From: Acidobacteriota bacterium
Lineage (GTDB): Bacteria > Acidobacteriota > Thermoanaerobaculia > Gp7-AA8
DNA length: 42,256 nt
NCBI GenBank assembly: GCA_025463165.1
Contig: JAOBAU010000386.1
Location: forward strand, 1-42,256
Direction: 5' to 3'
This document shows positions 1 through 37,785 of this stretch, in pieces; the stretch's first letter is position 1, and each line of letters begins with the position of its first letter. The notes below the pieces were generated by a model. That model saw only the letters and a list, made by a program, of their open reading frames with translations, was not told the DNA's origin and made no database searches. The translations under genes were made by a program, and so were the position numbers.

Positions 1-41
1 AACAATGAAATGCAGCATTGCTGCGTCATTCGGAGATCGTG

Positions 42-5042: not shown

Positions 5043-5059
5043 GACGACCTCCTGCACTC

Positions 5060-5089: not shown

Positions 5090-5130
5090 CGTCGGTGGCA
5101 ACACGCCGTCATGCTAAAGTCGCCCCTCCG

Positions 5131-5907: not shown

Positions 5908-5910
5908 CGC

Positions 5911-8916: not shown

Positions 8917-8920
8917 GCGA

Positions 8921-9499
8921 TCAGTGCGTGCCCGCCGGGGTTTCGCCGCGATCGTTCGCAACGCTGACGATCACGTCATAGACGTCTTTCGGCTTCGCCA
9001 GCGCGAAGATTTTCTTCCACAGTCCGGTGCGATCGTTGCCGGCGATCATTAGGTTCAGGTGTTCCTCGCGCGTCGCCACGTACTGACCGACCTTTCGCAG
9101 CGCCGCCTCAACCTCCGCGGGCGATCCGGTCAGGAAATACCAGCCGCGCTTCGCGTTCATCTTCTTCGCGTAGTCGTGCAGCACCGCCGGCGTGTCGTTG
9201 GCTGGATCGACCGTGATGGAGATCAGATTCACTTCGGCGCCGAGGCGCGGGCCGAGCTCCTGCTGCGCGTGAATGAACGCGCGACCCATCACCGGACAGC
9301 TGCCGGTGCAGCTCGCAAAGAACGAGTTGATGACGACCGTCTTTCCCTTCATCAGATCGTTATAGAGATCGACGCGATGGCCATCCTGATCGACGAGTGA
9401 AATGTTCGCGAAGTACGACGCCGCGGGACTCTTCGGTGGCTCCTGCGCGAACACCGAAACGGCGGCCAGCAGCACGAATGCGAAAACGAATTGGCGCAT
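8921..9499 (-). CDS. SCO1/SenC family copper chaperone or thiol oxidoreductase
   Basis: The 192-residue exported protein opens with the signal peptide MRQFVFAFVLLAAVSVFAQ. The thioredoxin-like SCO fold shows FFASCTGSCPVMGRAF with Cys64 and Cys68. A candidate third copper ligand His lies in TREEHLNLMIAG, and LISITVDPANDTPAVLHDYAKKM is the usual SCO middle segment. SCO proteins deliver copper to the CuA site of cytochrome oxidase or reduce its cysteines. The start ATG overlaps the stop of the upstream SCO gene by one base. Open frame continues upstream to 9583, but that region belongs to the other SCO gene. Two tandem SCO genes beside a cytochrome c and near a huge copper oxidase point to copper handling in the periplasm. 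Confidence 0.9.
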   Translation of the reverse strand: MRQFVFAFVLLAAVSVFAQEPPKSPAASYFANISLVDQDGHRVDLYNDLMKGKTVVINSFFASCTGSCPVMGRAFIHAQQELGPRLGAEVNLISITVDPANDTPAVLHDYAKKMNAKRGWYFLTGSPAEVEAALRKVGQYVATREEHLNLMIAGNDRTGLWKKIFALAKPKDVYDVIVSVANDRGETPAGTH

Positions 9500-10083
9500 C
9501 ACTTCCCCTTCTCTTCGCCGCTCATCCGATCGATGACGGCGACGATCGATGAGGGAGCGGCCAGTCCGTCGATCCGTTCCCATCGACCCATCTTCTCATC
9601 GCCGACGAGCACGACGGGCGAATGCGCGGCGGGATCGGCGTTGAAAAGGCCGAGCGATTTCAGCAGCCGATCGACGTCCGTCTTCGCACCGGTGACGAGC
9701 GTCCATCCCGGTTTCGCGCCGAGACGTTTGCTCCAGACGGCGAGTCGCTCCGGCGTGTCGACGGTCGGATCGATGCTGACGGAAATCATCGCGACGTTGC
9801 GCGTGCCGAGCAGTCGCTGCACGCGCGCGAACGTCGCGCCCATCGTCGGGCAGATCGTCGTGCAGCTGGTGAAGATGAAGTTCATCACCACGACGCGGCC
9901 TTTCACGAGGTCGGTGTAGAAGTGAACCTGCTGGCCGGTCGCGGTGAGCATCGGCACGTCGGGGATCGTGTAGGTGCGCGAGGCGGCGGGCGGCGGAGCC
10001 GCCATCAGATGATGATGATGTTCCTGGGAAACGGCGGGGACAGCAATGGCGAGCGCGCAGAGCAGGAGAAAGGGACGATTCAT
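9499..10083 (-). CDS. SCO1/SenC family protein with His-rich N-terminus
   Basis: The 194 residues comprise a signal peptide (MNRPFLLLCALAIAVPAVSQ), then EHHHH at 21-25 as a likely metal-binding tail, then a SCO domain. The CxxxC motif is FTSCTTICPTMGATF (Cys74, Cys78), the His ligand lies in PAAHSPVVLVGDE, and MISVSIDPTVDTPERL is the family middle motif. It is the first gene of the SCO/SCO/cytochrome operon. A candidate ECF promoter (10099-10127) ends 15 bases before the ATG, and TGGAG precedes the ATG by six bases. It probably loads or protects copper sites in the periplasm. Confidence 0.92.
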   Translation of the reverse strand: MNRPFLLLCALAIAVPAVSQEHHHHLMAAPPPAASRTYTIPDVPMLTATGQQVHFYTDLVKGRVVVMNFIFTSCTTICPTMGATFARVQRLLGTRNVAMISVSIDPTVDTPERLAVWSKRLGAKPGWTLVTGAKTDVDRLLKSLGLFNADPAAHSPVVLVGDEKMGRWERIDGLAAPSSIVAVIDRMSGEEKGK

Positions 10084-15284: not shown

Positions 15285-15379
15285 GCTCTGTACGGGAAGA
15301 CGCGCCCGCGTTGCACGACGTGAAATCCTTCACGAAAGGGGACGGAAACGCGTCTTTTAGTCAGATGGAGGAATCCTGC

Positions 15380-23212: not shown

Positions 23213-23249
23213 TGCCGGGGACGTTACCACCGATTGCTATGCTGAGGAG

Positions 23250-24277: not shown

Positions 24278-24511
24278 TTAGCGGGAGGTCGTTGGCAGGG
24301 CGGCGCGGGGGAGGCGGCAGGATGTTGCCAGCGCGAGGAGGGTTGGGCGCTCGAAGGAGATCGTTGCGACCGGGCGGGCGGTGGTGGTGTCCGGCGCGGG
24401 CGAAATGTCGGCAAGCAGAACAACCGGTACAAGAACGACGGCCTGCCAGACGATCAGCGCCGATACGAGAACGATCGCGATCGAGAGGATCGCTGCCGAT
24501 TTGCGCATCAT
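24278..24511 (-). CDS. Small membrane protein at the end of the biosynthetic operon
   Basis: The 77-residue product begins MMRKSAAILSIAIVLVSALIVWQAVVLVPVVLLAD, one long or two short membrane segments, followed by a Thr/Ala/Pro-rich tail with little predicted structure. Its ATG at 24509-24511 overlaps the TGA of the PhyH gene (ATGA), the same coupling used by most genes of this operon; this is the main reason for calling it real. The C-terminal half has less convincing coding character. No family is recognised. A role in anchoring or export of the pathway product is speculation. Confidence 0.45.
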   Translation of the reverse strand: MMRKSAAILSIAIVLVSALIVWQAVVLVPVVLLADISPAPDTTTARPVATISFERPTLLALATSCRLPRAALPTTSR

Positions 24512-25242
24512 CTCGCTCTATAAGCGGCCATCGACTCCGCGAATTCTTCGGGCGGCGGATCACGGTGTACTTCGAGGTGCGTGACGTCGCGGCCGCGCGC
24601 GACGACGACCGGTGTCACGGAGCGGAGCATGGCCGGCGTCGTGTAGCGGACGATGAACCCGGTGCGAGTCCAGTCCGATCGATTGGCGTTGCTGCCGTGA
24701 ATGATGTCGACGTGATGCAGCGACATCTCGCCCGCTTTCAGTTGCACGTCGACCGCATCCGCTTCGTCGACCTGCACCGCGATCTCGTGGCCGTGATTGA
24801 GCATGTTCAGCGGCTTGTTGGTTTCGGCGTGCTCGAGTTTTTGTTTCTGCGATCCGGGAACGACGCGCATGCAGCCGCTCTCGACGGTGCTGTCGCTCAG
24901 CGCGATCCAGGCGGAGACACTCGGTGCGTCGCCGAGGAAGCCGGCGTAGGCGCCGTCCTGATGCCATGCGACGAAGCTGGGGTCGTGCGGCGGCTTCGAG
25001 AGAATCAGCGTTCCCCATACGATCACGTCGTCGCCGATCAGCGACGCTACTTCATCGACGACGCGGGGATGCCGCGCCAGCTCGTACGCCCATCGAAAAT
25101 AGAGATGCGAACGGTCGAAGCGTTTCAACGGCTCGTCGTACGTCGCGGTGATGCGCGCGTAGTTTTGCTGCGCGGCGCGCAGCTCTTCGTCGCTCAGGAC
25201 GCGAATCGGAAAGCGGACACCTTCCTGCGCGAACGTGGTCAC
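24508..25242 (-). CDS. PhyH-family Fe(II)/2-oxoglutarate oxygenase
   Basis: The protein has 244 residues from the GTG at 25242, which overlaps the aminotransferase stop (GTGA). Motifs are FVAWHQDGAYAGF (His94, Asp96), GCMRVVPGSQK (125-133), KAGEMSLHHVDIIHGSNANRS with distal His182, and an Arg in TRTGFIVRY for 2-oxoglutarate. The Asp is intact, so hydroxylation is expected over chlorination. In-frame codons upstream to 25356 lie inside the aminotransferase and are ignored. It resembles dioxygenases that act on small metabolites in natural-product clusters. It is one of three HxD oxygenases in this operon and a fourth occurs at 42-887. Confidence 0.88.
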   Translation of the reverse strand: MTTFAQEGVRFPIRVLSDEELRAAQQNYARITATYDEPLKRFDRSHLYFRWAYELARHPRVVDEVASLIGDDVIVWGTLILSKPPHDPSFVAWHQDGAYAGFLGDAPSVSAWIALSDSTVESGCMRVVPGSQKQKLEHAETNKPLNMLNHGHEIAVQVDEADAVDVQLKAGEMSLHHVDIIHGSNANRSDWTRTGFIVRYTTPAMLRSVTPVVVARGRDVTHLEVHRDPPPEEFAESMAAYRAR

Positions 25243-26558
25243 GAAAACACCTTCTCGATCGCGCGCACGACGTCGCGCATGTCGTCGGTCGTGTTCGGCG
25301 GATTGACGAGCGGAAACCAGAGCAGCTCGCGATTCAGCGCTTCCGATCGCGGACACGTTCCCGTTCCGTAGCGCACGGCCGAATCGTTGAACGGCGCGCC
25401 GCGGGTGCCGTACGCGATCCGCCGCGTGAAGATCGGATTCTCGTGCAGCAGGCGCGGATAGCCGGCCACGAGAGGGATTCCTTCCGCGGCGAGAATGCGC
25501 ACGAGCTCATCGCGCGACGGCATCGAAGCGCCGGAGACATAGCGAAACTTCGGCATGTAGCAGGCGCGCTCCGCGTTCGCGGCGAGTTGCTGCGGAACAA
25601 ATTGCGGGAACGGGCGCAGCCCTTCGATGAGCGCGTTCGCATTCTCGTTGCGCACTTCATTGCGCTCGTCGAGTTGCTCGAACTGCGCGACCGCCACCGC
25701 CGCCTGCAGTTCCGTCAGCCGGAAGTTCATCCCGACGACGTTGGCCAGTTCGTCGTCGCCCCACGATTCGTCGGCCGCTCCTTCACCATGATTGCGAATG
25801 AGGCGCGACTTGATGGCGATGCGCGGATCGTTCGTGACGACGACCCCGCCTTCGCCACAGGTGATGCTCTTCGTTTCGGTGAGCGAGTAAACGCCGGCGT
25901 CGCCGATGGCGCCGACTTCGACGCCGTCGATGCGTGCGCCGAGCGACTGTGCGCAATCCTCGATCACCTTCAGGTCGTGCCGCCGCGCGAGCTCGACGAT
26001 CGCGCGCATGTCGGCCGGAATGCCGCCGAGGTGGACGGCGACGATGGCGCGCGTGCGCGGCGTGATTTTCAGCGCGCCGTCGCGCGGATCGATGCAGAAC
26101 GAATGCGGATCGACTTCGACGAACACCGGCACCGCCTGAAACGCGAGGATCGCGGTCGCCGTCGCGTGGAATGACATGCACGGCACGAGCACTTCATCGC
26201 CCGGCTCGAGGCCGATCGCGCCGAACGCCATCACGAGGCCGGACGTCGCCGAGTTGCAACCGATCGCGAACGTCGTCCGCGTGCGCGCGGCGAACATCGA
26301 TTCGAGCAGCCGCACGTAGCGGCCGCCGAGGTAGCGGACGTCGTGAAGATCGCGCGCGATTGAGGATGGGGTTGCGCAGAGATCGCGAACGTTCGCGCCG
26401 GCGCCGGCGCGGAAACCGGACCAGTTGCAGCTTTCGAGCGCGTCGAGCAGCAGCTCGCGCTCGCGGCCGCCGATGTGACAGTTGGGTGCGAACGGACGGG
26501 TGCGAATCGGCGTACCGCCATCGATCGCGAGTCGCGCCGATGTATCGATCGCCGTCAT
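25239..26558 (-). CDS. DegT/DnrJ/EryC1/StrS family PLP aminotransferase
   Basis: The 439-residue protein has the standard layout: N-terminal AIDGGTPIRTRPF (11-23), CNSATSGLVMAFGAIGLEPGDEVLVPCMSFHATATAIL, IEDCAQSLGA (199-208) with the PLP-ring Asp201 and Gln204, and SLTETKSITCGEGG with the Schiff-base Lys230. The GGxPxR start is shared by aminotransferases of aminocyclitol and AHBA-type pathways as well as by sugar aminotransferases. It overlaps both neighbours by four bases. It presumably aminates a keto-sugar or cyclic ketone. With the shikimate-dehydrogenase-like gene upstream in the same operon, a cyclohexane-derived substrate is possible but unproved. Confidence 0.9.
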   Translation of the reverse strand: MTAIDTSARLAIDGGTPIRTRPFAPNCHIGGRERELLLDALESCNWSGFRAGAGANVRDLCATPSSIARDLHDVRYLGGRYVRLLESMFAARTRTTFAIGCNSATSGLVMAFGAIGLEPGDEVLVPCMSFHATATAILAFQAVPVFVEVDPHSFCIDPRDGALKITPRTRAIVAVHLGGIPADMRAIVELARRHDLKVIEDCAQSLGARIDGVEVGAIGDAGVYSLTETKSITCGEGGVVVTNDPRIAIKSRLIRNHGEGAADESWGDDELANVVGMNFRLTELQAAVAVAQFEQLDERNEVRNENANALIEGLRPFPQFVPQQLAANAERACYMPKFRYVSGASMPSRDELVRILAAEGIPLVAGYPRLLHENPIFTRRIAYGTRGAPFNDSAVRYGTGTCPRSEALNRELLWFPLVNPPNTTDDMRDVVRAIEKVFS

Positions 26559-27319
26559 GCGGACACCTTTTGCCGCAGACAGTCATCCGGCAGCGGCACC
26601 AGCGCGGGACCATCGGCATCGCAGTGAAACCATTCGCGCTTCGGACTCAGCTCGCGGTTCGAAATCGGGCTGATGTTCATGTAGAAAATGCGGCGCGGCC
26701 ACGGCGACACGTTCGGCGCGGAGCCGTGAATGATCAGCGAGTGAAAAAGCACGACGGAACCGGGAGGTCCCATCAGCGGAATGATCCCGAGATCGTTCGC
26801 GGCCGCGGCGACGTCGGCGTCCGGAATGTCCATCGCATCGGGATTGAAAATGTGCCCGCGCTTGTGCGAACCGGGGATCACCATCACCGGACCGTTGCAC
26901 GGATTCACATCATCGAGAAACACGCCGAGCGCCATCGCGTTCGGCGTCTGCATACCATCGAGCCGATGCCATTGATTGAAGTCCTGATGCCACGCCCAGC
27001 CGGCGGAATGGAATCCCGACTTCACGTTAAAGCGCGACTGGAAGAGATATGCCGGCTCGCCGAAAAGCTGCTCGACGCGCGAGAGCAATCGCGGATGCAG
27101 CGTCAGGCGGCGAAACGTTTCGTTGAACGTGTGCGCGGCGAAGATCATCCGCACCATCGACGCGTCGCCATCCTCGCGAATCACCTCCGGCCCCTGGCGC
27201 ACGATCACCTCCGGCACGGCGGCGCGGAGGAGCTCCACTTCATCGGCGTCGAACAGCGCCGGCAGCAGCAGGTAGCCGTCGCTCGCCATCTGCGCGAGTT
27301 GCGAGTGCGAGAGTGTCAT
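26555..27319 (-). CDS. EctD-like PhyH-family dioxygenase
   Basis: The 254-residue protein is close to ectoine 5-hydroxylase in its core: LFQSRFNVKSGF (92-103), WAWHQDFNQWHRLDG (His111, Asp113), ALGVFLDDVNPCNGPVMVIPGSHKRGH (130-156) and FHSLIIHGSAPNVSPWPRR (His198, Arg209/210). These blocks match the EctD/ThpD pattern of iron and 2-oxoglutarate residues. No ectABC genes are present, so the substrate is probably another zwitterionic or amino-acid-like intermediate of the operon. It overlaps the aminotransferase start by four bases (ATGA) and the glycosyltransferase stop upstream by four. Confidence 0.88.
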   Translation of the reverse strand: MTLSHSQLAQMASDGYLLLPALFDADEVELLRAAVPEVIVRQGPEVIREDGDASMVRMIFAAHTFNETFRRLTLHPRLLSRVEQLFGEPAYLFQSRFNVKSGFHSAGWAWHQDFNQWHRLDGMQTPNAMALGVFLDDVNPCNGPVMVIPGSHKRGHIFNPDAMDIPDADVAAAANDLGIIPLMGPPGSVVLFHSLIIHGSAPNVSPWPRRIFYMNISPISNRELSPKREWFHCDADGPALVPLPDDCLRQKVSA

Positions 27320-28272
27320 GCGGTCTCCAGGACGAGCGGCAGGTGCGGTTCGAGCCAGCGTGCGACCGCGCCGCGGCGGTCGATGGTCGGCTCGAGATTC
27401 GCGAGGTCATCGGCGATGCGCAGCGAGCGGTTGTAATGAACGTGCACGAGCTCTTCGAGCGGCATGGAGCGGAACGGCTCGGCGAGCGCGGCGCGGCCCG
27501 GCAGCGGATAGTTGTAGCGGCCGTCGAGCATGCGGACGCGCGGCCAGACGCGCGTGAGCGTCGCGGCGAGTGAGAACTGATCCATGTAGTGCAGCTCGCC
27601 GCCGCGCGGCACGAGGTTCGCCGCGCAGAGCGCGAGAAAGTCTTCGCGCCATTGCGTGAAGAGTCCGGCGGAGCGGCGGACGGCGATGAGTCCCGAGTTG
27701 AAATACGCGCGGATGCGCTGGCGGCTGCAGGTCGTCTCGACGAACGGCTCGTGCTCGATGCCGAGGAGCGCGTACATGCGCGTCCAGCAATCGTCGATCG
27801 GATTCCCGGGACCGGCGGAGCTGATGCGGCGATGGTGCGTCCGCCAGAATGGATCGCCGTCATCGTCGGGCTCGTCCGGCATGCGATGAATGTCGACCGG
27901 ACGAACCGCCGCGTCGACGTCCGGCGGCAGCAGAAAGCCCGCCGGTTCCGAAGTGATCAGCGAATCACTATCGAGGAACACCACCACCTCTTCCCTCACC
28001 AGCTCCTCGGCGCGCGCGGCTGCGAAAATCTTGTTCGCGATCGCGTAGTGCGGGAAGGCGGCGTTCAGCTGTTCATCGATGTGACGAACGCCGAGCGCGT
28101 CGAGCTGCGCGGCGGTCTTCGCGGTGATGGTCGTGCCGGCGCGCGGCTGGAACGTGTAAATCGGCGCGCCGCCGAGGTGACCGCCGAAGCGGCGAATGCT
28201 GCGGCAGAGCAGCAGCGCTTTTTCTTCGAGCTCGCCGCGCTCGATGCAGGCGATGAATGCGACGCTGCTCAT
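27316..28272 (-). CDS. GT-A fold glycosyltransferase-like protein
   Basis: The 318 residues begin SSVAFIACIERGELEEKALLLCRSIRRFGG, a pattern seen in nucleotide-diphospho-sugar transferases that open with a CxExG-like strand and helix. VVVFLDSDSLITSEP near residue 100 supplies the DXD metal/sugar motif. CSRQRIRAYFNSGLIAVRRSAGLFTQWREDF and ELHYMDQFSLAATL fit the second half of GT8/GT-A-like enzymes, and HVHYNRSLR is a late His motif. The ATG at 28272 overlaps the previous stop (ATGA). The longer frame to 28305 lies inside the upstream gene. The donor and acceptor are unknown. Confidence 0.78.
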   Translation of the reverse strand: MSSVAFIACIERGELEEKALLLCRSIRRFGGHLGGAPIYTFQPRAGTTITAKTAAQLDALGVRHIDEQLNAAFPHYAIANKIFAAARAEELVREEVVVFLDSDSLITSEPAGFLLPPDVDAAVRPVDIHRMPDEPDDDGDPFWRTHHRRISSAGPGNPIDDCWTRMYALLGIEHEPFVETTCSRQRIRAYFNSGLIAVRRSAGLFTQWREDFLALCAANLVPRGGELHYMDQFSLAATLTRVWPRVRMLDGRYNYPLPGRAALAEPFRSMPLEELVHVHYNRSLRIADDLANLEPTIDRRGAVARWLEPHLPLVLETA

Positions 28273-28982
28273 CGCGCGACCTCCATCGCTTCGGCGACGA
28301 GCCATTCATCGGGCACGCCGACGCGCGGCATTTCGGCGAGAGACGTTCCCGGCGTCAGGTTCACGACGCGAATGCCGCGCCGCGCCGCTTCCTCGCACAG
28401 CAGTCCCCAGCTCGCGCAGATGCGCGCGTAACGATCGGACGACTCGGCGAAGCCGCTGGCGTGCAGACCGGCGCCCGGCGCGTGGCGGCCGTCAGCGCGG
28501 TGCATGTCGAGTCCGACATACGCGAGCGTGCGGAATCCGCGCGGGTGGCGCGACGCATGATCGCCATCCGGCCATGGATTGCCGAGCCAGTTGCCGATCA
28601 CCATCGAGGTGCTGCCGCCTTTGTAGCCCTGATTCGGATCGTCGCTCCAGCCGTACACGCCGCCGTCGGCCTCATCGACTTCGACCAGGTACGAATCGGC
28701 CGGCGTGTCTTGAGCGTCGATCGAGGTCACGCGCCATGCCTTCGTCGTGTTCCAGATTTGCGAGAGTCGCGGCACGCGATCGAAGAGATCGCGATGAACG
28801 TCCATCGCGGCGAGCAGCGTGAACTGCACGTCGTTCGCGATACAGGCATCGGCAGCGGGCGCGCCGTTGACTCCCGCAATCGCGCCGGCTTTCGCGAGCT
28901 GCTGCCATGCGTGCGCGGAGAGCGATTCGAGCGATGGTCCGGCGCAAACGATGACGGCGGTGTGGCGATCGATGGAGATCAT
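28269..28982 (-). CDS. DUF115-like protein
   Basis: The 237-residue protein opens HTAVIVCAGPSLESLSAHAW, the glycine/Pro-Ser-Leu motif typical of DUF115/MAF-flag10-type proteins, which are structurally related to sialyltransferases and 6-hydroxymethylpterin diphosphokinase-like enzymes. GAIAGVNGAPAADACIANDVQFTLLAAMD follows as the second Rossmann-like block. LAYVGLDMHRADGRHAPG holds the conserved Asp-His region, and STSMVIGNWLG may bind a nucleotide. Such proteins often accompany surface glycan genes. It sits between the 2OG oxygenase and the glycosyltransferase with four-base overlaps, so a glycosyl-type step is a fair guess only. Confidence 0.6.
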   Translation of the reverse strand: MISIDRHTAVIVCAGPSLESLSAHAWQQLAKAGAIAGVNGAPAADACIANDVQFTLLAAMDVHRDLFDRVPRLSQIWNTTKAWRVTSIDAQDTPADSYLVEVDEADGGVYGWSDDPNQGYKGGSTSMVIGNWLGNPWPDGDHASRHPRGFRTLAYVGLDMHRADGRHAPGAGLHASGFAESSDRYARICASWGLLCEEAARRGIRVVNLTPGTSLAEMPRVGVPDEWLVAEAMEVAR

Positions 28983-29683
28983 GCGGCGGCTCCGAGGTCG
29001 AAGACCTTCGTCTGCAACTCCGCCAAAAAATTCACATGCAGCCGCGGATGCGGAGTCAGCGAACGCAACGACACCGCGTGCAGCGCGTCGGGCGAATGCG
29101 GGAAGAGCACGAGCCGGTTCGCGGCGTACGCGATCGTCTTCACCTTCTCGACGAGCGTGTCGGGAACGATGCGGCCTTCATCGTAATGACGCTCGTCGCC
29201 GCGCCAGCGATAGAGCTCGAGATCGCCGCCGCGCGAATCGTCATCATCGCGGCGGAAGTAGAGCAGCCCCGCGAAGAGCGCGCATTCGCGATCGACGTGC
29301 ACAGGATGCGGACGCGACAGACGCTTCACCGGCGAGCCCCACATCAGCTGACAGTCGAGCGCGACGTCCGCGAACGGCTCGACGAAACGAATGCTCGTCC
29401 GCGCGTTCGCGAACTCCCGCAACTCGTCGGCAAACAGCTCCACGATCTCCGCGAAGAACTCGCGCGACGTATGCCTCGCGGCGAACGCGCGCCAGACCGG
29501 CGGAGCTGCGCGCAGCAGCCACTCCGCCGACGTGCGATACGTCGTGTTGCTTTCGAGCTCGCGGCCGCGCAACAGCTCTTCATCGGACGGCATCGTCGCG
29601 ACGAGCTCGCGATACAGATCATCATCGAGCGCGTGGTCGATGACGACGTGCGGAAACGGATCGCGTTCGATGACACCGTTCAT
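28979..29683 (-). CDS. 2OG-Fe(II) oxygenase, prolyl-hydroxylase-like
   Basis: The 234-residue protein begins DPFPHVVIDHALDDDLYRELVATMP, a common start of prolyl 4-hydroxylase-type domains. The iron triad is HPVHVDREC (His129, Asp131) with distal His202 in SPDALHAVSLRSLTPHPRLHVNF, and Arg207 or Arg214 is the 2-oxoglutarate anchor. LFAGLLYFRRDDDDSRGGDLELYRW is the characteristic middle segment. This is a different subfamily from the PhyH-type oxygenases in the same operon, so at least two independent hydroxylation chemistries are encoded. The gene overlaps both neighbours by four bases. Confidence 0.85.
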   Translation of the reverse strand: MNGVIERDPFPHVVIDHALDDDLYRELVATMPSDEELLRGRELESNTTYRTSAEWLLRAAPPVWRAFAARHTSREFFAEIVELFADELREFANARTSIRFVEPFADVALDCQLMWGSPVKRLSRPHPVHVDRECALFAGLLYFRRDDDDSRGGDLELYRWRGDERHYDEGRIVPDTLVEKVKTIAYAANRLVLFPHSPDALHAVSLRSLTPHPRLHVNFLAELQTKVFDLGAAA

Positions 29684-30750
29684 ACCGCACGCGCCTCTTC
29701 GCGCTGCTCGCGGCGGCGCACGAGCGGCAGCACGTCGCGATGAAAGTTCGTCATCTCTTCCATGTCCGGCCAGCCCATGAAGAGGAACTGCGTGATGCCG
29801 GCGGCTCGGAAATCAAACAGCGCATCGGCGACTTCATCGGGCGAACCGACGATCGCCATCGCAGGCGCGCCGAGATACGGCACCGCGCCCGACCAGAGAT
29901 ACGGCGTCAGCCACTCGCTCTGCGCGGCCAGCGCGTACGTCGACGTGAACGCGACCGAATCCGAGCGCCGCGCGAACTCCTCGTGCGTCCGTTTCGGCTG
30001 CTGTCCCACTTCCTCCAGGATCGCTTCGGCCGCTCTCATCGCCTCGGCATGCGTCGGCCGGACGATCAGCGAAACGAGCAGTCCGACTTCCGTCCCCTGC
30101 TCGACGATCTCCAGCGTTCGCGCGCGCAACTTGTCGGGCGTGTCGGGCAGACGCCAGAGACAGTCGGCGTGCGCGATGGCCTGCTGTTCCGCGACCGCAG
30201 AACTGCCGCCGAGGTAGATCTCCGGCGCGGTGCGATCGGGAGCGGCGAAGTGGAGATTGAGCTTCCCGTTCACGACGCGGTAGTGATGTCCTTCGAAGTT
30301 CACGTCGCCATCGCGCCGCCAAAACGCGCTGCAGATTCGGAGGAACTCGTCGGTCCGCTCGTAGCGCTCGTCGTGCTTGAGAAAGTCGCCGTAATAACCC
30401 TGCTCGTCCGGCGTGTGTCCGGCGACGATGTTCAGGCAGATGCGGCCGCCGGTGAGCATCGCCACCGTGTTGACCTGCTGCACGAAATAGGTCGGCGACA
30501 TCACACCGGAGCGCATCGCCACCATGAACTTGATGCGCGTCGTCAGCGCGCCGAGCGCGGCGGCGACGTTGAACGGATCGGGGCGATGAAAGCCGAACGC
30601 CATCAGCAGCGATTCGATCTCGCACTCTTCGGCGTGACGCGCGAATCGCAGCATCGATTCGAGCGACTGAATGGCCAGCGCTCCGCGCGCCTGCGCACCG
30701 CGAAGCTTTCCGCCGGCCGACGACATGCTCCAGTGAAAGCGGAGCGCCAT
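29680..30750 (-). CDS. LLM class flavin-dependent oxidoreductase, third paralogue
   Basis: The 356 residues are plainly related to the pair at 890-3051. They share LRFHWSMSSAGGK at the start, AMRSGVMSPTYFVQQVNTVAMLTGGRICLNIVAGHTPDEQGYYGDFLKHDERYERTDEFLRI in the middle, and AAGITQFLFMGWPDMEEM near the end. It is probably an FMNH2-dependent monooxygenase. It is more divergent from the tandem pair than those are from each other, so it is likely to have a distinct substrate or step. It lies three bases after the membrane/phosphatase gene and overlaps the 2OG oxygenase gene by four. Confidence 0.9.
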   Translation of the reverse strand: MALRFHWSMSSAGGKLRGAQARGALAIQSLESMLRFARHAEECEIESLLMAFGFHRPDPFNVAAALGALTTRIKFMVAMRSGVMSPTYFVQQVNTVAMLTGGRICLNIVAGHTPDEQGYYGDFLKHDERYERTDEFLRICSAFWRRDGDVNFEGHHYRVVNGKLNLHFAAPDRTAPEIYLGGSSAVAEQQAIAHADCLWRLPDTPDKLRARTLEIVEQGTEVGLLVSLIVRPTHAEAMRAAEAILEEVGQQPKRTHEEFARRSDSVAFTSTYALAAQSEWLTPYLWSGAVPYLGAPAMAIVGSPDEVADALFDFRAAGITQFLFMGWPDMEEMTNFHRDVLPLVRRREQREEARAV

Positions 30751-30753
30751 CGC

Positions 30754-32205
30754 CTATGCCACTCCGGCGCCGAGCTCGCGGAAACGCACTCGGATGTGTT
30801 CGCGAATGGCGCGCGCGCAGTCGACGTAAGTGTCGAGCGGTTTGCCGATCGGATCGTCGATGTCGCCGGCGGGATTCAATGTGTGCGTCTTCGCGGCGGC
30901 CGCGGGACGTGACGCGATGACGGCGTCGCGATGTTTCGAAGTCATGCAGAAGATCGCTGACGCTTCGTCGACCAGCTCGTTGGTCAGTTGCTGCGATGCG
31001 TGCTCGTGCGGCTTGATCGTCAGCAACTCCAGCGCCGTGCGCGCTTCCGCGGTCATCGCCTCGCCTGCTTTCGCCGAAGTGCCGGCGCTGCGAATGCGAA
31101 TGTGTGCGCCCATCGCGGCGCTCTCGGCGTTCGCGATCGCTTCGGCCATCGGCGAGCGGCAGGTGTTGCCGCTGCAGACGAAGAGATAGACACGTGCGAC
31201 CGCTTCGGCGGGACCGCTGCCGGTAACGACGGCGGCGCGCGTGCGCGGATCGCGCAGGAGGCGAATCGAATTGCGAACGTATTCGTCGAGGTGATGCAGC
31301 GGCGACAGGAACAGCAGCGCGATCACCATGATCGATGCGCCAGCCAGATCGCCGGCCGACACGCCTTTGAATCCGCTGAAACGGTGCAGCAGGTACGTCG
31401 CCGTGATGCCGGCGAGAAGACTCGATCCGCAGAAGAGCGGAATCGTGAACGTGTTCTCGCGGCGATCGAGATAGATCAGCGTGCAGAACGTGTAGAGGCA
31501 CGCGTAGAAAAAACCGATCATCACCGTCGTCAGCGAGCGATCGAAGTACCCGTCGCGCAATGCGCCGACGCCGGCGACGGCGAAGATCGCCGGCACGATC
31601 GTCAGCAGGACGCAGGCGACGAGAATCTCGCCGACGAAGTAGCGGCGCGTGATCGACGGATCGTCGACCTTGGCCACGTACGTCATGCACGGCAGACGCA
31701 ATGCGTAGCCGGTCAGGTATGCGCCGAGGTTGAGCAGGACCATCGCCGTCACGCTGTGATCGCTCGTGCGATAGATGGAGACGCCGACGGCGATGAGGCT
31801 CGCCGCCAGTGCGGCCCACGAGAACCAGCGGACGCGGCGCTTGAGGACCGTGTCGATGATCGGCGCCATCGTCAGCACGCCGCCGCGCATGAGCAGCAGC
31901 GCGAGAATCACGGAGATCCCTTTGAACGTATACGCGAGCGTCGTCGCGGCGATGATGAGCGCGACGCCGACGCCGGAGATCACGACCGCGCGCGATGGCC
32001 AGGCGGCGTGCTTCCACCAGCCGAGCAGCGTGACGATGATCAGCAGCATGACGACGGTCGTCAGCAGCGAGACCGGCAGCAGGCCAACGCCGTTCGCCTT
32101 ACGCGCCCCCGCGGTGACGAGTTTTACGATCGCGCTGTAAGGAACGTAGAACGCGAAGTAGCCGAACGCGAAAGCCCAGATGATGCGATGCGCCGGCTTT
32201 GACAT
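30754..32205 (-). CDS. Membrane protein fused to a low-molecular-weight phosphatase domain
   Basis: The protein has 483 residues. Residues 1-305 hold about nine or ten transmembrane helices (for example WAFAFGYFAFYVPYSAIV at 10, LLTTVVMLLIIVTLLG at 47, VVISGVGVALIIAATTLAY at 74, IMVIALLFLSPL at 292). The arrangement resembles drug/metabolite-type permeases. From 337 a complete LMW protein-tyrosine-phosphatase/arsenate-reductase-like domain follows: YLFVCSGNTCRSPMAEAIA gives the CX5R loop (Cys344, Arg350), IRSAGTSA the next strand, and GDIDDPIGKPLDTY the general-acid Asp (450/451). The fusion is unusual. It could couple transport to dephosphorylation of a sugar or aminocyclitol phosphate, or be regulatory. 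Spacing is 15 bases from the gene before and three from the gene after. Confidence 0.82.
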   Translation of the reverse strand: MSKPAHRIIWAFAFGYFAFYVPYSAIVKLVTAGARKANGVGLLPVSLLTTVVMLLIIVTLLGWWKHAAWPSRAVVISGVGVALIIAATTLAYTFKGISVILALLLMRGGVLTMAPIIDTVLKRRVRWFSWAALAASLIAVGVSIYRTSDHSVTAMVLLNLGAYLTGYALRLPCMTYVAKVDDPSITRRYFVGEILVACVLLTIVPAIFAVAGVGALRDGYFDRSLTTVMIGFFYACLYTFCTLIYLDRRENTFTIPLFCGSSLLAGITATYLLHRFSGFKGVSAGDLAGASIMVIALLFLSPLHHLDEYVRNSIRLLRDPRTRAAVVTGSGPAEAVARVYLFVCSGNTCRSPMAEAIANAESAAMGAHIRIRSAGTSAKAGEAMTAEARTALELLTIKPHEHASQQLTNELVDEASAIFCMTSKHRDAVIASRPAAAAKTHTLNPAGDIDDPIGKPLDTYVDCARAIREHIRVRFRELGAGVA

Positions 32206-32220
32206 GTCGTCTCCATTCCC

Positions 32221-33453
32221 TCAGGGCTTGAAGAACGACGAATCGAAGCTGCGCCCGAGGATCGATTTGCCGATCGTCGCCAGCACCTGATCGTCGTTGT
32301 CATGCCGCACGTAGATGGCGAGATCGCGAAGGACGCGTTCCATCGGGCTGGGACGATTGAGCGCGCGCGCGCCGCATGCGCGGATGCAGTGGTCGACGGT
32401 CTCGACCGCGAGGTGCTCGACGAGATGCCGCGCGCGGCTGCCGGCCACCTGCGCTTCGCCGTACGCGCCGCTCTCCCACAATCCGGCCACGTGCTTCAGC
32501 CAGAGGTGCGCGGTCTCGACGTTCATCGCCATCTTCGCGACGTGATGCTGCACGTACGGATCGTCGCCTTTCCCCTGCGAACGAATGTGTGCGAGCGCGT
32601 AGTCGTACGCCGCTTCGGCCGCGCCGAGAAACGCCGACGCGTAATGCGGCACGAAACAGGTCTGCCATCCTTCGCGCAGATACTGGCCGGGCTCGCCGAC
32701 GAGATTTTCTTCAGGGATGAACGTCCGATCGAAGATCGCGACGTGGCTGACGGTCGAGCGCATCCCGATCGGGTCCCACCACGAGCCGTCGAAGCGGATC
32801 GAAGGATCGTCGAGATCGCAGGCGATGAGCAGCAGCGTCGCCGCGGCATCGGCTGTTGCGTGACGTGCGCCGCCGGGACCGGCTGTATTGACGAGCAGCA
32901 GCGCCCAGCGCGCGCCGCCGGCGCTCGTGCAAAACGCTTTCTTGCCGTCGATGACGTAACCGCCTTCGACGCGCTCGACGCTCGTGCCGAAACTCTGTGT
33001 GTCGCCGGGCGCGCGCGATTGCGGCTCGCCGCTCCATGCGACCCATTTCTCGCCGCGCGCGACGATCCCTTCGAACCAGCGCGCTTTCTGTTGCGGCGTC
33101 GCCATACCGTCGAGCAGCACGAGCGAGTTCGCGTGACCTTCCCAGCAGCGCGCCAGCGAAAGATCGGCTTTCGCGATCTCTTTCGTCATCATCCACAGCG
33201 TGAAAACGTCGCCGCGATATGGGCCGAGCCCGAGTCCGCCGTGCTCGCGCGGCACCGTCGGCGCGTGGAGGCCGGCGGCGAAAAGATCATCGAAGTCTTC
33301 CAGTGGAAACGTAGCGGTGCGGTCGTAGTGCGCGGCGCGCGGCGCGAGCCGTTCCTGCGCCAGACGCGCCGTCCGATGGACGAGCTCGCGCTGCGCCTCA
33401 CCGAGGTACGTATCGGCGAACGTTCGCTCGCCGGTTTCCACCGCGACCGTCAT
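32221..33453 (-). CDS. Acyl-CoA-dehydrogenase-fold flavoprotein, probable class D monooxygenase
   Basis: The 410-residue protein has the full acyl-CoA dehydrogenase fold: a helical N-domain with VPREHGGLGLG (67-77), the middle beta domain (AWSGEPQSRAPGDTQSFGTSVERVEGGYVIDGKKAFCTSA), and the C-terminal helices ending PMERVLRDLAIYVRHDNDDQVLATIGKSILG. In dehydrogenases the last stretch carries the EGT motif with the catalytic Glu. Here it reads RHDNDD, with His384-Asp385, as in DszC/SfnB-type FMNH2 monooxygenases, which also use a His near residue 100 (His107 in CWEGHANS). An oxygenase role is therefore more likely than acyl-CoA oxidation. It overlaps the small unknown upstream by four bases. Confidence 0.85.
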   Translation of the reverse strand: MTVAVETGERTFADTYLGEAQRELVHRTARLAQERLAPRAAHYDRTATFPLEDFDDLFAAGLHAPTVPREHGGLGLGPYRGDVFTLWMMTKEIAKADLSLARCWEGHANSLVLLDGMATPQQKARWFEGIVARGEKWVAWSGEPQSRAPGDTQSFGTSVERVEGGYVIDGKKAFCTSAGGARWALLLVNTAGPGGARHATADAAATLLLIACDLDDPSIRFDGSWWDPIGMRSTVSHVAIFDRTFIPEENLVGEPGQYLREGWQTCFVPHYASAFLGAAEAAYDYALAHIRSQGKGDDPYVQHHVAKMAMNVETAHLWLKHVAGLWESGAYGEAQVAGSRARHLVEHLAVETVDHCIRACGARALNRPSPMERVLRDLAIYVRHDNDDQVLATIGKSILGRSFDSSFFKP

Positions 33454-33842
33454 CCCTTCGAGATCCTGTGGAAGAACTCGCGGTCGAAATAGTTCGAGCG
33501 GCCGCTGTCATCCTTGAAGCGATTGAAGCTGGCGACGACGAGCACGCCCGCTTTCACATTCGCCTGCATGCGCACTTCTTCGTAGCCGAGGTCGAAGACG
33601 GCGCTGAAGGCGCCGGCCTGGCGCGATTCGAACGTGAACGAATAGAGCGGCGCGTCGACTTCGCTCCAGTCTTCGATCTCGCCGCCGGCCGTGCGTCCGC
33701 TGCAGCGAACGCGCATCGTGCCGTCGGGATGCGACGTGCAGACGATGCGGGCGATGCCGGCTTCGGCGTTGGTGTTGATCCATTCGCCGGCGAGGACGGC
33801 GGCGTCGAGTGCGAGGGCGGCGGTTTCGGCAGCTGCGGTCAT
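33450..33842 (-). CDS. Small beta-rich protein of unknown function, paralogue of 33862-34284
   Basis: The 130-residue protein has no membrane segment or signal peptide. Its core reads GEWINTNAEAGIARIVCTSH, then GTMRVRCSG, IEDWSEVDAPLYSF, FSAVFDLGYEEVRMQANVKAGVLVVASFNRF and finally YFDREFFHR. Alternating hydrophobic strands and W/N/DW/D motifs suggest a closed beta barrel of lipocalin or avidin type. The same order of motifs occurs in the neighbouring gene product, so the two are diverged duplicates. Four-base overlap with the monooxygenase downstream implies a shared role, perhaps as a binding or cyclase-like protein for a pathway intermediate. No named family can be given. Confidence 0.75.
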   Translation of the reverse strand: MTAAAETAALALDAAVLAGEWINTNAEAGIARIVCTSHPDGTMRVRCSGRTAGGEIEDWSEVDAPLYSFTFESRQAGAFSAVFDLGYEEVRMQANVKAGVLVVASFNRFKDDSGRSNYFDREFFHRISKG

Positions 33843-33861
33843 GATCGATTCCTCATCGAGA

Positions 33862-34284
33862 TCAGGCGCGGAAGAAGAACTCGCGCGTGAAGCGGTCGGA
33901 GAGCGCGCCCGGTTGTTTGAAGGTGACGAAGGTCGCCACGACGAGGAGACCGAGGTTGTAGTTCGCCTGGACTTCGACCGACATCTCGTCGAAGTCGTAT
34001 TGCGCGACGAAGCCGCCGGCTTTCGCGCTCGACGTGTTCGATGCGCTGGCGTACGGCCACTGAATGCGAACGCGGCCCCAGTCCGCGGGAGACGGCGAAG
34101 CGCCGCCGAAGATGTGCACGTACGTGACGTCGTCGACGGTGTCGAGCTCGAGGCGCTCGATCCATTGCGGTTTGTCGCTGGTCTTGTACCAGCGGCCGTC
34201 CATCACTTCCGCTTCGATGCGCGGCGGCGGGACAGCCATCGGCAAATGCTCGACGCTCCGTCGCGATTGTTGTGGCTCACCCAT
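33862..34284 (-). CDS. Small beta-rich protein of unknown function, paralogue of 33450-33842
   Basis: The 140-residue protein carries a ~25-residue polar N-terminal extension, then DGRWYKTSDKPQWIERLELDTV, TYVHIFGGASPSPADWGRVRIQW, FVAQYDFDEMSVEVQANYNLGLLVVATFVTF and SDRFTREFFFR. The ADW, YD, QAN..GLLVVA.F and REFF.R positions align one by one with the neighbour. An alternative start, ATG at 34239 (MAVPPP) or later, is possible, because the first residues are low-complexity. It is soluble and probably cytoplasmic. Two paralogues side by side may form a heteromer. Confidence 0.75.
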   Translation of the reverse strand: MGEPQQSRRSVEHLPMAVPPPRIEAEVMDGRWYKTSDKPQWIERLELDTVDDVTYVHIFGGASPSPADWGRVRIQWPYASASNTSSAKAGGFVAQYDFDEMSVEVQANYNLGLLVVATFVTFKQPGALSDRFTREFFFRA

Positions 34285-34299
34285 TCAGTCTTCCTCCGG

Positions 34300-35799
34300 T
34301 CAGCATTCGGCGATCAACTCGGCCGGTTCGAGACCGAGGGTTTGGCGTGCAAGTCCTTCCGGCATTTCATCGCCGGTCATCAGGCGGAACTGTTCGAGCG
34401 CCTGGGTGATGAGCATGTCCCAGCCGTCGATGGTGATGCGGCCGGGTCCGCGCGTGCGGGTCATGAGCTGCGTCGGCGTATCGCGATAGACGAGGTCGAC
34501 GATTACCGCGTCGCGCTTGAGGGTTTCGATCGGAAACGAGATCTCGTCGCTGTCGCGGCCGACCGGCGTCGCGTTGACGACGATCGAAAATCCGTCGCCG
34601 GAGAACGCGTTGAGCGGCATGAACGGAAGTCGCAGCAGCCGGACGGCGAGCGATGCGCGCTCCAGTCCGCGATTGACGAGCGTGACGTCGGCGCCGGCCT
34701 GATCGAGTGCTGCCGCCATCGCGCGGCCGGAGCCGCCGCAGCCGATGACAGCGACGCGCTGCTTCGCGCACCGAATCCCTCGCTCGCGCAGCGTAAGAAT
34801 CACTCCCTCGGCGTCCGTCGTCTCCGCGACCCATTCGCCGTCGGCGCCGCGTCGAAAGAAATTCGTCGAGCCGGCGCGCCGGACGACGGGACTCTTCGAG
34901 CGCGCGGCGCCGAGCGCGATCGCTTTGTGCGGCGAGACGACCGAGAGTGCGTTGATCGAAAAGCCGAGCGATTCCAGCGCGCCGTTGCGAATCACGCGCG
35001 ACCAGAAATCGGAGAACTCGTCGACGTGAAACGGAACGTAGAGCGCGCTGCGGCCGGTGGCGCGGAACGCGGTGTTGTGAATGCGCGGTGAGTGCGAGTG
35101 CATGACCGGCGCGCCGACCATGCCGAACAGTTCGTCGATCTCCGGGAGATCGGGAAATCCGAAGCTGCCGATGAGGCGATCGATCGACGGCAGCCCTTCG
35201 GTCGTGTCGTCGTCACCGACGCGTCCGAAGACGATCGGTGCGCCGAGCCACGGCGCGACGATGCGCGACCAGAGTCCGATCGGACCGGTGGCGTACGCGG
35301 TGACGTCGGAGCGTCCCGATCCCTTGAGGAGCTGCAGCGGTGCGAGCTCATCGCCGCTGCGCTTTGCGACGGCGGAGATGCGATAGAGATGCGCGTCGAC
35401 CGACGTCATGACGCGTAATCGGTCAGTGAGATGAGTGAGCTCCGGCGCCGAGCGGCGCGAGGAAATGATCCGCTTTGATGGCGGGATTGCCTTCAGCACG
35501 GCGGGAACGAGGTCGCCGAGCTCGAGATCGATGAAGTCGTAGTCGCGGGCGGCGGCGATGAGTCGCGCGCGGCGGCTGACGTCGCCCTCGGCGCTGCCGC
35601 CTTCCGCCTGGCTGCGCAATGAATAGAGGAGCGCGCCGGGGAAGTGCGAGCGGAGCCACGAGACGTCGAGATCGCCGAGGAGATCGGCTCGGACTTCGAG
35701 CCAGCCCGCGTTTCGGGCGACGGTCGCGATCAACTCGCCGGTCGGGCGAGCATCGAGTACGGCAACGACGGTGGCGCTGGACATGGAGGGTTTGGACAC
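34300..35799 (-). CDS. AroD-AroE-like two-domain protein with a degenerate AroD domain
   Basis: The 499-residue protein fuses a type I 3-dehydroquinate dehydratase-like domain (10-215) to a shikimate dehydrogenase domain (222-499). The second looks functional: APVMHSHSPRIHN (230-242), SPHK with Lys292, AGSTN with Asn313, ETTDAEG with Asp329, and the NADP loop VIGCGGSGRA (351-360). The first retains LEVRADL (34-40) and YSLRSQAEGGS (59-69). However, the Schiff-base Lys expected in the KIAVM-like strand is Arg140 (LYRISAV), the catalytic His expected after ISS is Arg115 (IISSRRS), and the late Gln motif is not evident. It heads the 13-gene operon. The start is GTG at 35799, or ATG at 35784; neither has a ribosome site. 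A pathway-specific role is more likely than core shikimate synthesis. Confidence 0.85.
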   Translation of the reverse strand: MSKPSMSSATVVAVLDARPTGELIATVARNAGWLEVRADLLGDLDVSWLRSHFPGALLYSLRSQAEGGSAEGDVSRRARLIAAARDYDFIDLELGDLVPAVLKAIPPSKRIISSRRSAPELTHLTDRLRVMTSVDAHLYRISAVAKRSGDELAPLQLLKGSGRSDVTAYATGPIGLWSRIVAPWLGAPIVFGRVGDDDTTEGLPSIDRLIGSFGFPDLPEIDELFGMVGAPVMHSHSPRIHNTAFRATGRSALYVPFHVDEFSDFWSRVIRNGALESLGFSINALSVVSPHKAIALGAARSKSPVVRRAGSTNFFRRGADGEWVAETTDAEGVILTLRERGIRCAKQRVAVIGCGGSGRAMAAALDQAGADVTLVNRGLERASLAVRLLRLPFMPLNAFSGDGFSIVVNATPVGRDSDEISFPIETLKRDAVIVDLVYRDTPTQLMTRTRGPGRITIDGWDMLITQALEQFRLMTGDEMPEGLARQTLGLEPAELIAEC

Positions 35800-35855
35800 C
35801 GTTTGTCTACTAAAAGACGACGCGCCGCGGGTGACTGTGAATGGAAAGTCAAAGT

Positions 35856-35925: not shown

Positions 35926-35973
35926 ATGTTGACTTTCACACGCGCGCGGCGCCGGGCGTCTTATCCTCGTCAG

Positions 35974-37785
35974 GTGACAAACTTCCTCGGTGTGCTGGCG
36001 TTGGCGGCGCTCGTCTCGCAAAAGGTGACGGACGGCGGGATCGTCGTCGGTCTCGACGTTGCGAACGCGCGCGAGGGCGACACCGCCCGCGTCGAAGTGA
36101 CGCTGCGCGATCAGACCACCGGCGCGCCGCTCGGCGGCGTCTTTCCGACCGCGTGGTTCAACAAGTCCGCGGATGACAAGCCGCTCGACCGTAAGCAGTG
36201 CACCGCCACCGTCGCGACGTTCGTCGCCGGCAACGTCTACCAGCGTCCTTCGCTCGACCTCAACGTCTATTACGTCGTCGCACTGAACGGCGACGGCACG
36301 CTGACCGTCGTCGATCCGCATTTCAGTTTCGGCGGGACGCAGCTCATCGGCATGCTCGAGCTCCCCTCGCCCGGTTTCGACTGGACGCTGACTGCGGACG
36401 GCACGCGCCTCCTCGTCACGTCGCCCGCCGCCGGCAAAGTGACGGCGATCGACACCGCCCGCTGGAAGATCCTCTCGACGTTCGACGCCGGCACCGAACC
36501 GCGGCGCATCGTCGAACAGCCGGACGGACATTACGTCTGGATCTCGACGCGCGACGGCGTTACGGCGCTCCGTCGGGCCGATCTCACCATCGCCGCGAAG
36601 ATCGCCACGGGACAAGGTCCGCACGATCTCGCCGCCACTCCCGACAACCGCTCGATCATCGTCACGAACGGCGGCGACGGCACGGTCAGCATCATCGACG
36701 TCGCCACATTGAAAGAGGTCGCGCGCGGACCGGCCGGCGCGAAGCCGGTGTCGGTCGACTGGTCACCGCTCAGCAACCTCGCCTACATCGCCAGCTCCGA
36801 CGGCGCGATCACGGTGCTCGATCCCCGCGCACGAAAACCGGTCGGACGAATCATGACCGAGCCGGGACTGGAGCGGATTCGTTTCGCGCCGGGCGGCCGC
36901 TACGGCTTTACGCTCAATCCGGCGAAGGATCTGATGCACATCGTCGATGTGTCGTCGAACCGCGTCATCCAGACCGGCGAGCTGGAAGGCGGTCCGTTCG
37001 AAGTGACCTTCACCGATTCGCTGGCGTACGTTCGCCGCCGCGACAGCGAACTGGTGCTGATGGTTCCGCTCGCCAACATCGGCAAGGAAGGACGAGCGCT
37101 CGCGGTCGTCGAGTTCCCCGGCGGCCAGGAAAACTTCGGGAAGATGCCGCGACTGACCGCCGCCGACGGCATCGTCGCCGCGGCGGGCGAGAACGCGGTG
37201 CTCGTCGCGAACCCGGCTGACGGCGAGGTCTACTTCTATAAGGAAGGGATGGCGGCGCCGATCGGCCATTTCTCGAATTACCACCATCCGCCGCAGGCCG
37301 TGCTCGTCATCAACCGCAGCCTGCGCGAAGGAAAACCGGGGACGTTCACGACGACCGCCACGATGCCGGAGGCGGGAACGTACGACGTCGCCGTCTTCAT
37401 CGATTCGCCGCGCGTCATCTCCTGCTTCACCGTGAAGGTCGCTGAGAATCCCGACATCGTCGCCGCGAAGCCGCGCGTGCCGTTCAACATCGAGCAGCTG
37501 ACGAAACAGCGGATTATTACGGCGCACGAAAAAACGCAGCTGGAGTTCCGCCTCACCGACGTGAAGACGAAGCTGCCGGCGAATGCGCTGGCCGACGCGC
37601 GCGCGCTGATCATGCAGGCGAACGGCGCGTGGTCGGAACGGCTGGCGCTGCAGCCGCGCGGCGACGGACGCTACGAGGCCGACTTCACGTCACCGTCGCC
37701 CGGCGTCTACTACGTCTACGTCGAATGCCCGTCGGCAGGACTCAGGGCTAGCAATCCGCAGTTCCTCGTTCTGCAGGCGCAGTGA
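35974..37785 (+). CDS. Exported YVTN-type beta-propeller protein
   Basis: The 603-residue protein starts at the GTG at 35974, where TNFLGVLALAALVSQ forms a short signal-like stretch. The in-frame ATG at 35926 lies inside the inverted repeat and is less likely. After an N-terminal beta domain (to about 115), repeated blades such as GKVTAIDTARWKILSTFDAGTEP, GPHDLAATPDNRSIIVTNGGDGTVSIIDVATLKEV and AKDLMHIVDVSSNRVIQTGE give a seven-bladed-type YVTN/cytochrome-d1-like propeller. The C-terminal ~200 residues are two Ig-like beta domains (GKPGTFTTTATMPEAGTYDVAVFID; DGRYEADFTSPSPGVYYVYVECP). It resembles proteins accompanying copper or nitrite redox systems. The 3' end overlaps the convergent ECF sigma gene by 38 bases. 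Confidence 0.8.
   Translation: MTNFLGVLALAALVSQKVTDGGIVVGLDVANAREGDTARVEVTLRDQTTGAPLGGVFPTAWFNKSADDKPLDRKQCTATVATFVAGNVYQRPSLDLNVYYVVALNGDGTLTVVDPHFSFGGTQLIGMLELPSPGFDWTLTADGTRLLVTSPAAGKVTAIDTARWKILSTFDAGTEPRRIVEQPDGHYVWISTRDGVTALRRADLTIAAKIATGQGPHDLAATPDNRSIIVTNGGDGTVSIIDVATLKEVARGPAGAKPVSVDWSPLSNLAYIASSDGAITVLDPRARKPVGRIMTEPGLERIRFAPGGRYGFTLNPAKDLMHIVDVSSNRVIQTGELEGGPFEVTFTDSLAYVRRRDSELVLMVPLANIGKEGRALAVVEFPGGQENFGKMPRLTAADGIVAAAGENAVLVANPADGEVYFYKEGMAAPIGHFSNYHHPPQAVLVINRSLREGKPGTFTTTATMPEAGTYDVAVFIDSPRVISCFTVKVAENPDIVAAKPRVPFNIEQLTKQRIITAHEKTQLEFRLTDVKTKLPANALADARALIMQANGAWSERLALQPRGDGRYEADFTSPSPGVYYVYVECPSAGLRASNPQFLVLQAQ

Follow-up and report, generated by a model that had tools for sequence, protein, structure and literature searches.

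The window analysed here, one entire contig of 42,256 bases (JAOBAU010000386.1) from an Acidobacteriota genome assembly (5.1 Mb, 471 contigs), harbours an operon of 13 open reading frames (ORFs) on the minus strand (24278–35799; GC content at third codon positions 0.74–0.84). The operon consists of two joined parts, a conserved core (genes a–f) and a lineage-specific tailoring part (genes g–l), and represents a biosynthetic cluster that is probably metallophore-like. Its genes are the following:

34300..35799, minus strand: a, AroDE-like protein, 499 amino acids (aa), with DHQase-I and shikimate dehydrogenase (SDH) domains
33862..34284, minus strand: b, small beta-barrel protein 1, 140 aa, without Pfam or NCBIfam family
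33450..33842, minus strand: c, small beta-barrel protein 2, 130 aa, without Pfam or NCBIfam family; avidin-like barrel in the AlphaFold2 (AF2) model
32221..33453, minus strand: d, ACAD-fold flavin enzyme (ACAD domains), probable class D monooxygenase, 410 aa, marker of the core
30754..32205, minus strand: e, fusion of a DMT-type membrane domain and a low-molecular-weight (LMW) phosphatase, 483 aa (LMWPc domain, AF2 model)
29680..30750, minus strand: f, LLM flavin monooxygenase, 356 aa (Bac_luciferase domain)
28979..29683, minus strand: g, putative Fe(II)/2-oxoglutarate (2OG) oxygenase, tailoring (weak PF13640 match, relative at locus L015)
28269..28982, minus strand: h, uncharacterised protein, tailoring (relative at L015)
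27316..28272, minus strand: i, uncharacterised protein, tailoring (relative at L015)
26555..27319, minus strand: j, PhyH oxygenase with similarity to ectoine hydroxylase, tailoring (Pfam and NCBIfam, relative at L015)
25239..26558, minus strand: k, DegT-family pyridoxal-phosphate-dependent aminotransferase, tailoring (DegT domain, relative at L015)
24508..25242, minus strand: l, PhyH oxygenase, tailoring (PhyH domain, relatives in 13 core loci)
24278..24511, minus strand: m, ORF of 77 aa, possible small membrane protein, unproven

The first-pass annotation, made from the letters of this DNA, had described a thirteen-gene, nearly gapless operon running from 35799 to 24278, and this layout is confirmed, with neighbouring genes lying −4 to +19 bases apart: from a to m the distances are 15, 19, −4, 15 and 3 bases, followed by seven 4-base overlaps in succession. 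The overlaps at i and l result from resetting the starts of these genes (i, the putative glycosyltransferase, to ATG 28272; l, the last PhyH gene, to GTG 25242), both of which are now shorter than the longest ORF. An ORF at 33839–34165 was discarded as lying in the wrong frame, the true gene being b. A promoter and terminator scan gave no signal exceeding that of shuffled sequences. As the contig ends where the window does, further genes of the set may lie beyond base 1, at the left edge. Domains were assigned to the window proteins with Pfam and NCBIfam. No domain of a polyketide synthase (PKS), a non-ribosomal peptide synthetase (NRPS) or an NRPS-independent siderophore (NIS) synthetase was detected among the window proteins scanned (all except a few flanking ORFs), in agreement with the earlier view of tailoring-type enzymes devoid of a recognised core synthase.

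An ACAD-pair scan with one genome per species yielded 69 loci that contain the core, entire or partial. About eight phyla are represented (Acidobacteriota, Actinomycetota, Cyanobacteriota, Bacteroidota, Pseudomonadota, Chlorobiota, SAR324 and a single record labelled Deltaproteobacteria); many of the records are metagenome-assembled genomes (MAGs), and their labels are those of the submitters. Within the fetched flanks, hidden Markov models (HMMs) built here detected AroDE-like genes at 47 loci, barrels at 46, the phosphatase domain at 39, LLM enzymes at 21 and an MnxG-type multicopper oxidase (MCO) at 9, many loci being truncated by contig ends. The order a-b-c-d-e-f recurs from Acidobacteriota through Bacteroidota; the comparison of gene order proposed by the first-pass annotation thus revealed conservation across phyla. 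At L015, genes a to l follow in the same order without e, at 50–78 % identity, and this is the sole other locus found to contain g, h, i, j and k together. The span 24278–35799, formerly taken as the full unit, leaves out half of the system. The division into core and tailoring genes had been missed, as had the mnxG-type genes linked to the operon and the association with metal transport described below. A patchy distribution is supported, as the ACAD gene was detected in 2 of 396 Acidobacteriota genomes (E 1e-60); among 297 genomes, the barrel family occurred in 2, the identical pair. In a maximum-likelihood tree of the ACAD proteins, the window groups with L015 (100/95) and L078 (98/94); Cyanobacteriota and Bacteroidota form one group each, and Acidobacteriota and Pseudomonadota are each split. 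These groupings fit some transfer between lineages, short of proving it.

Protein a aligns with the plant DHQ-SDH (PDB 2gpt) over residues 30–486 and shares the two-domain architecture of this bifunctional AroDE, from which it differs by Arg at both catalytic positions of the DHQase (His and Schiff-base Lys). Its SDH half keeps Lys, Asp and Asn, and the NADP-binding motif is present. Among 43 AroDE copies of the core, 26 retain the dehydratase His and 8 the Schiff-base Lys (missing in 35/43), whereas only four (L016, L020, L021, L026) have both; the SDH residues are retained far more often (Lys 42/43, Asn 43/43, Asp 34/43). Constraint thus acts on the reductase half, and most copies show decay of the dehydratase half. 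The source genome contains a second AroDE (contig 129, G000:C129) with both dehydratase residues intact. Given the residues lost from a and the intact enzyme elsewhere, ordinary shikimate supply by a appears unlikely here.

The flavin enzyme d possesses ACAD-fold domains and probably is a class D flavin monooxygenase, an assignment that the following features fit, without amounting to proof. In sequence alignment, the position of the catalytic Glu is occupied by the Asp of a near-invariant HDN motif. Relatives of known structure are dehydrogenases, DszC and nitrososynthases. With the class D monooxygenases of this fold (nitrososynthases, DszC, SfnB), d shares fold and domain matches; it differs by its own motifs CWEGH, WSGEP, WWxPxGM and HDN, the first three of which are invariant (as CWEGH, WSGE(P) and WWxPxGM-type motifs) in a family of 67 sequences. 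No NCBIfam equivalog cut-off was reached by d, its top match being the SfnB family, far below cut-off. Genes for flavin mononucleotide (FMN) reductases were found near the core in 8 loci. Protein f has its top NCBIfam match in the SsuD family, likewise far below cut-off. The substrate site of SsuD, which we take to comprise R226, H228 and R297 in the usual numbering, is mostly not kept in the LLM enzymes of core loci, and f was accordingly rejected as an alkanesulfonate monooxygenase. The best matches of f and d (SsuD; SfnB/DszC) would be expected of a catabolic or sulfur-scavenging operon; such a function is at odds with the lost SsuD residues, the DegT aminotransferase, the barrels and an AroDE conserved in gene order, and is barely plausible.

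The AF2 model of c (predicted local distance difference test score, pLDDT, 93) gave no Foldseek match at E 0.001. It is predicted to form an eight-stranded avidin-type barrel (Z about 11, root-mean-square deviation (rmsd) 2.7–3.4), VIA-align yielding Z 11.2 and rmsd 2.7 over 102 residues with monomeric streptavidin. The likeness of the modelled barrel to avidin is one of fold and implies no function. At L009 (G246, 2681–5920), two genes, each for a fused pair of domains, encode the barrels and lie downstream of a large ORF resembling an FAD/NAD(P)-binding protein. The model of e (pLDDT 89) matches the DMT protein LicB with its N-terminal half (Z 21.8, rmsd 3.2, 252 aligned residues), which also matches the CMP-sialic acid transporter, and the phosphatase YwlE with its C-terminal half (Z 26.2, rmsd 1.2, 143 aligned residues). 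The CX5RS loop and the DP loop of LMW phosphatases are retained in nearly all of 40 copies. An arsenate reductase was considered and rejected for this domain, as the best structural match, YwlE, is an arginine phosphatase; the ArsC and PTP models score about equally, both far below cut-off. Compared to known LMW protein phosphatases and LicB-type DMT transporters, e combines both folds, including the CX5RS and DP loops, in one chain, and other lineages have the phosphatase joined to ABC ATPases: to a ModC/WtpC-type ATPase with adjoining WtpA/WtpB (L020, L023, L054, L074) and to a PstB-type ATPase with adjoining PstS/PstC-type proteins (L026). The domain is thus partnered with three transporter types across lineages, two of them for tetrahedral oxyanions. 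The fusion of an LMW phosphatase to an ABC ATPase is unusual in its own right.

In the tailoring part and beyond, the gene names given by the first-pass annotation hold for the AroDE domains, the ACAD fold, LMWPc, Bac_luciferase, both PhyH proteins and DegT, but not for the DUF115-like protein (h) and the glycosyltransferase (i), neither of which matches a Pfam or NCBIfam family. The proposed 2OG oxygenase (g) does match PF13640 (E 3e-4), albeit below the curated cut-off. The relatives of g, h and i at L015 are 51, 59 and 56 % identical, respectively, and conservation at 56–59 % indicates that h and i are real genes. A sequence search of the PDB gave no relatives of g, h or i. The ectoine-hydroxylase similarity of j lies below the family cut-off. 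No homologue of m was present in any fetched locus.

Four further genes of the window belong to an mnxG-type set:

35926..37785, plus strand: YVTN beta-propeller/YtkA protein, divergent from a (divergent order also at L019)
15311..21154, plus strand: MnxG-type giant MCO, 1947 aa (NF041487, 1062 bits versus a cut-off of 3100)
8921..9583, minus strand: SCO1/SenC copper chaperone (domain scan)
7717..8961, minus strand: cytochrome c and Peripla_BP_6 protein (domain scan)

As the MCO does not pass the NCBIfam equivalog cut-off (1062 of 3100 bits), it is called MnxG-type and not MnxG proper. The putative mnxG operon of P. putida GB-1 comprises an MCO, a YVTN propeller, two SCO1/SenC proteins, a cytochrome c with periplasmic binding protein (PBP) domain and SurA (PMC11409713). 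MCO, propeller, SCO1/SenC and cytochrome c-PBP all recur in the window and at several core loci; in contrast, the published operon lacks the AroDE/barrel/ACAD core, and the set of the window is scattered. Could the mnxG-type genes and the core be independent and mere neighbours on the contig? Within the window, glycosyltransferase genes separate the two, and both strands are used. However, mnxG-type genes and core form one co-directional string in Chlorobiota (L025), SAR324 (L026) and at L072 and L082 (Aquimarina), a string that at L071 is seen from SCO1 on, so contiguity is encountered in Bacteroidota, Chlorobiota and SAR324. Moreover, L019 has the divergent propeller/AroDE arrangement of the window, and the two gene sets co-occur: the MnxG-type MCO was detected in 7 of 297 Acidobacteriota genomes, including both core carriers sampled (Fisher p 5e-4, uncorrected for relatedness), and in 11 of 12 core-carrying Acidobacteriota (one as a fragment of 213 residues) versus 5 of 295 core-less ones (likewise uncorrected). 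Independence is considered very improbable.

Metal-related genes adjoin the core in further lineages. Cyanobacterial core loci lack the AroDE-like gene and carry an octopine-dehydrogenase-like gene in varying sets, together with genes for FMN reductase, TonB receptor, FecB/FecCD, a TupA/TupB-like transporter, an HTH-PBP_like regulator and a NifE-type protein; TonB receptors were found at 10, FecB at 9 and TupA at 4 of 13 loci (control loci, 0/20). Pseudonocardiaceae loci contain PepSY_TM, MFS, ChrB_N and FecBCD genes (FecCD 4/9, PepSY_TM 6/9, ChrB_N 7/9; control loci, 0/20). The control loci were searched with HMMs built from core-linked members. Exported oxidases vary by lineage: MnxG-type at 9 loci, CueO/PhsA-like at L022, L037 and L074, and GlxA-like together with DyP peroxidase at five Streptomyces loci. 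With siderophore and metallophore clusters the core shares adjoining FecBCD, TonB, PepSY_TM and MFS genes (Cyanobacteriota, Pseudonocardiaceae); it differs by the lack of an NRPS, PKS or NIS synthetase, and the window by the lack of a metallophore importer.

The product of the core probably binds metals or is handled together with metals. More specifically, we tentatively favour a pathway that works without NRPS or PKS, yields a secreted small molecule with metal-binding ability and is coupled here to manganese oxidation, since this is the simplest single account of why some lineages have uptake genes and others oxidases. From gene set and order, active-site residues, linkage and folds, we infer the chemical steps, the metal and the direction of transport as follows. 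The SDH half of a would reduce a small polar precursor at a keto or imine centre, and d and the LLM enzymes would oxygenate this precursor using reduced flavin; the two avidin-like barrels may hold intermediates or give them their shape. Lineage-specific groups would come from the PhyH/2OG oxygenases, the DegT aminotransferase and proteins h and i, and e might translocate across the membrane, and dephosphorylate, a species that is phosphorylated or resembles an oxyanion. The amino-cyclohexane or amino-sugar scaffold suggested by the first-pass annotation is hypothetical. The product could then act beside the MnxG-type extracytoplasmic oxidase, e.g. as a ligand for Mn(III) or, alternatively, for other metals released during manganese cycling. 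Two observations on P. putida fit a metal-binding product: the affinity of its pyoverdine for Mn(III) equals or exceeds that for Fe(III), and Mn(III) complexed by desferrioxamine B (Mn(III)-DFOB) is oxidised by strains possessing MnxG alone or McoA alone (PMC5906577).

A bolder version of this view would regard the core as the hallmark of a new non-NRPS metallophore class in about eight phyla, whose chelating group is built by the AroDE-like reductase and the ACAD-fold monooxygenase, probably by N-oxygenation. An octopine-dehydrogenase-like enzyme would replace the AroDE-like reductase in cyanobacteria, the linked genes would tune the choice of metal (Mn with mnxG-type, Mo/W/V oxyanions with Tup/Wtp-type and Fe with FecBCD genes), and mnxG carriers would encode a dedicated Mn(III) ligand together with the oxidase. 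As a whole, this proposal is unlikely. Known clusters for hydroxamate warheads use AurF-type N-oxygenases (PMC5719088). No published cluster of the present make-up was found in open-access full text, the scope of the literature search.

Several points weigh against a secreted metal-binding product. The neighbouring metal genes point to different metals depending on the lineage, so that the link may be indirect. The mnx-type genes of the window are scattered over 30 kb and both strands, and cyanobacteria show no MnxG link, actinobacteria hardly any. No TonB receptor or metallophore importer was detected in the window, the left edge of which is cut. The controls are few (20 per group) and not position-matched, and the five Streptomyces loci feature a GlxA-like copper oxidase and DyP peroxidase instead of uptake systems. 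The main rival is a redox-active metabolite or antibiotic that is not a metallophore and whose last oxidation takes place extracellularly, catalysed by DyP or by the copper oxidases encoded nearby; the metal genes would then serve the oxidases (MnxG-type, CueO/PhsA-like, GlxA-like) or self-protection. This explanation accounts for the lineage-dependent exported oxidases better than a metal-binding product does, the o-aminophenol oxidase PhsA being among the matches of the CueO-like protein. It leaves unexplained, however, the TonB/FecBCD, PepSY_TM, TupAB and WtpAB genes of cyanobacteria, Pseudonocardiaceae and others, and is considered somewhat unlikely.

In lichen-type and related cyanobacteria (L028–L030, L034, L035, L040–L042, L044, L083), a NifE-type gene adjoins the ACAD gene, and each genome has several NifE-type copies, this one included. 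Specificity for vanadium in cyanobacteria was rejected: VnfD is present in only 3 of 12 genomes, and TupA-type transporter and NifE paralogue hence do not single out this metal. An amavadin-like product is speculation.

The left part of the window contains an accessory block beside the contig edge and genes for glycosyltransferases (GTs):

18..887, plus strand: PhyH oxygenase, left accessory block beside the contig edge (domain scan)
890..1969 (start approximate), plus strand: LLM monooxygenase, paralogue of f
1966..3051, plus strand: LLM monooxygenase, paralogue of f
3041..4223 (start approximate), plus strand: uncharacterised domain and RidA (Ribonuc_L-PSP); relative near the core at L016
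9955..11304 (start approximate), plus strand: GT4 glycosyltransferase; relatives at L009 and L016
11292..12044 (start approximate), plus strand: glycosyltransferase with DXD region; relative at L016
11998..14052, minus strand: protein of 684 aa, no Pfam family; shares 36 % identity with a protein adjoining L009 (G246)

GT4, DXD-GT, GINT1_N, Capsule_synth and EPS-type GT genes near the core at several loci allow for a role in decorating a surface glycan or glycolipid, in which GTs, DegT, PhyH and the DUF115-like gene would modify a polymer and the core would make an unusual building block. Polymer export genes were not recognised among the window proteins scanned, and the core loci of cyanobacteria and Pseudonocardiaceae yielded none of the clustered GT families; such a role is improbable.

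Why bacteria oxidise manganese is treated as an open question in PMC11409713 and PMC11930936, and a small-molecule pathway in one string with an mnxG-type oxidase in several phyla provides a genetic handle on this process. In lichen-type Nostoc, tungstate-type and TonB transporters are encoded beside the core, which would make it relevant to how nitrogen fixation is supplied with metal. The core also points to a class of specialised metabolites devoid of the marker enzymes usual in genome mining.

Between the MCO and the operon, an FAD enzyme with similarity to Trp_halogenase (97.7 bits) is encoded at 21914–23230; it was not found near other core loci. At L081 (Streptosporangiales MAG), five P450-family genes follow in a row downstream of the ACAD gene. 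The divergent spacer between a and the propeller gene is filled by a 42-base inverted repeat (35844–35937; 95 % complementary, 10-base loop) containing the motif GGGGTCAGGTCTGGAAAGTTGACTTT, which has 14 matches in the source genome, mostly as facing pairs (reversed control, 0). This repeat is classified as an element resembling repetitive extragenic palindromes (REP-like). It overlaps the listed start of the propeller gene (35926), which may therefore start further downstream.

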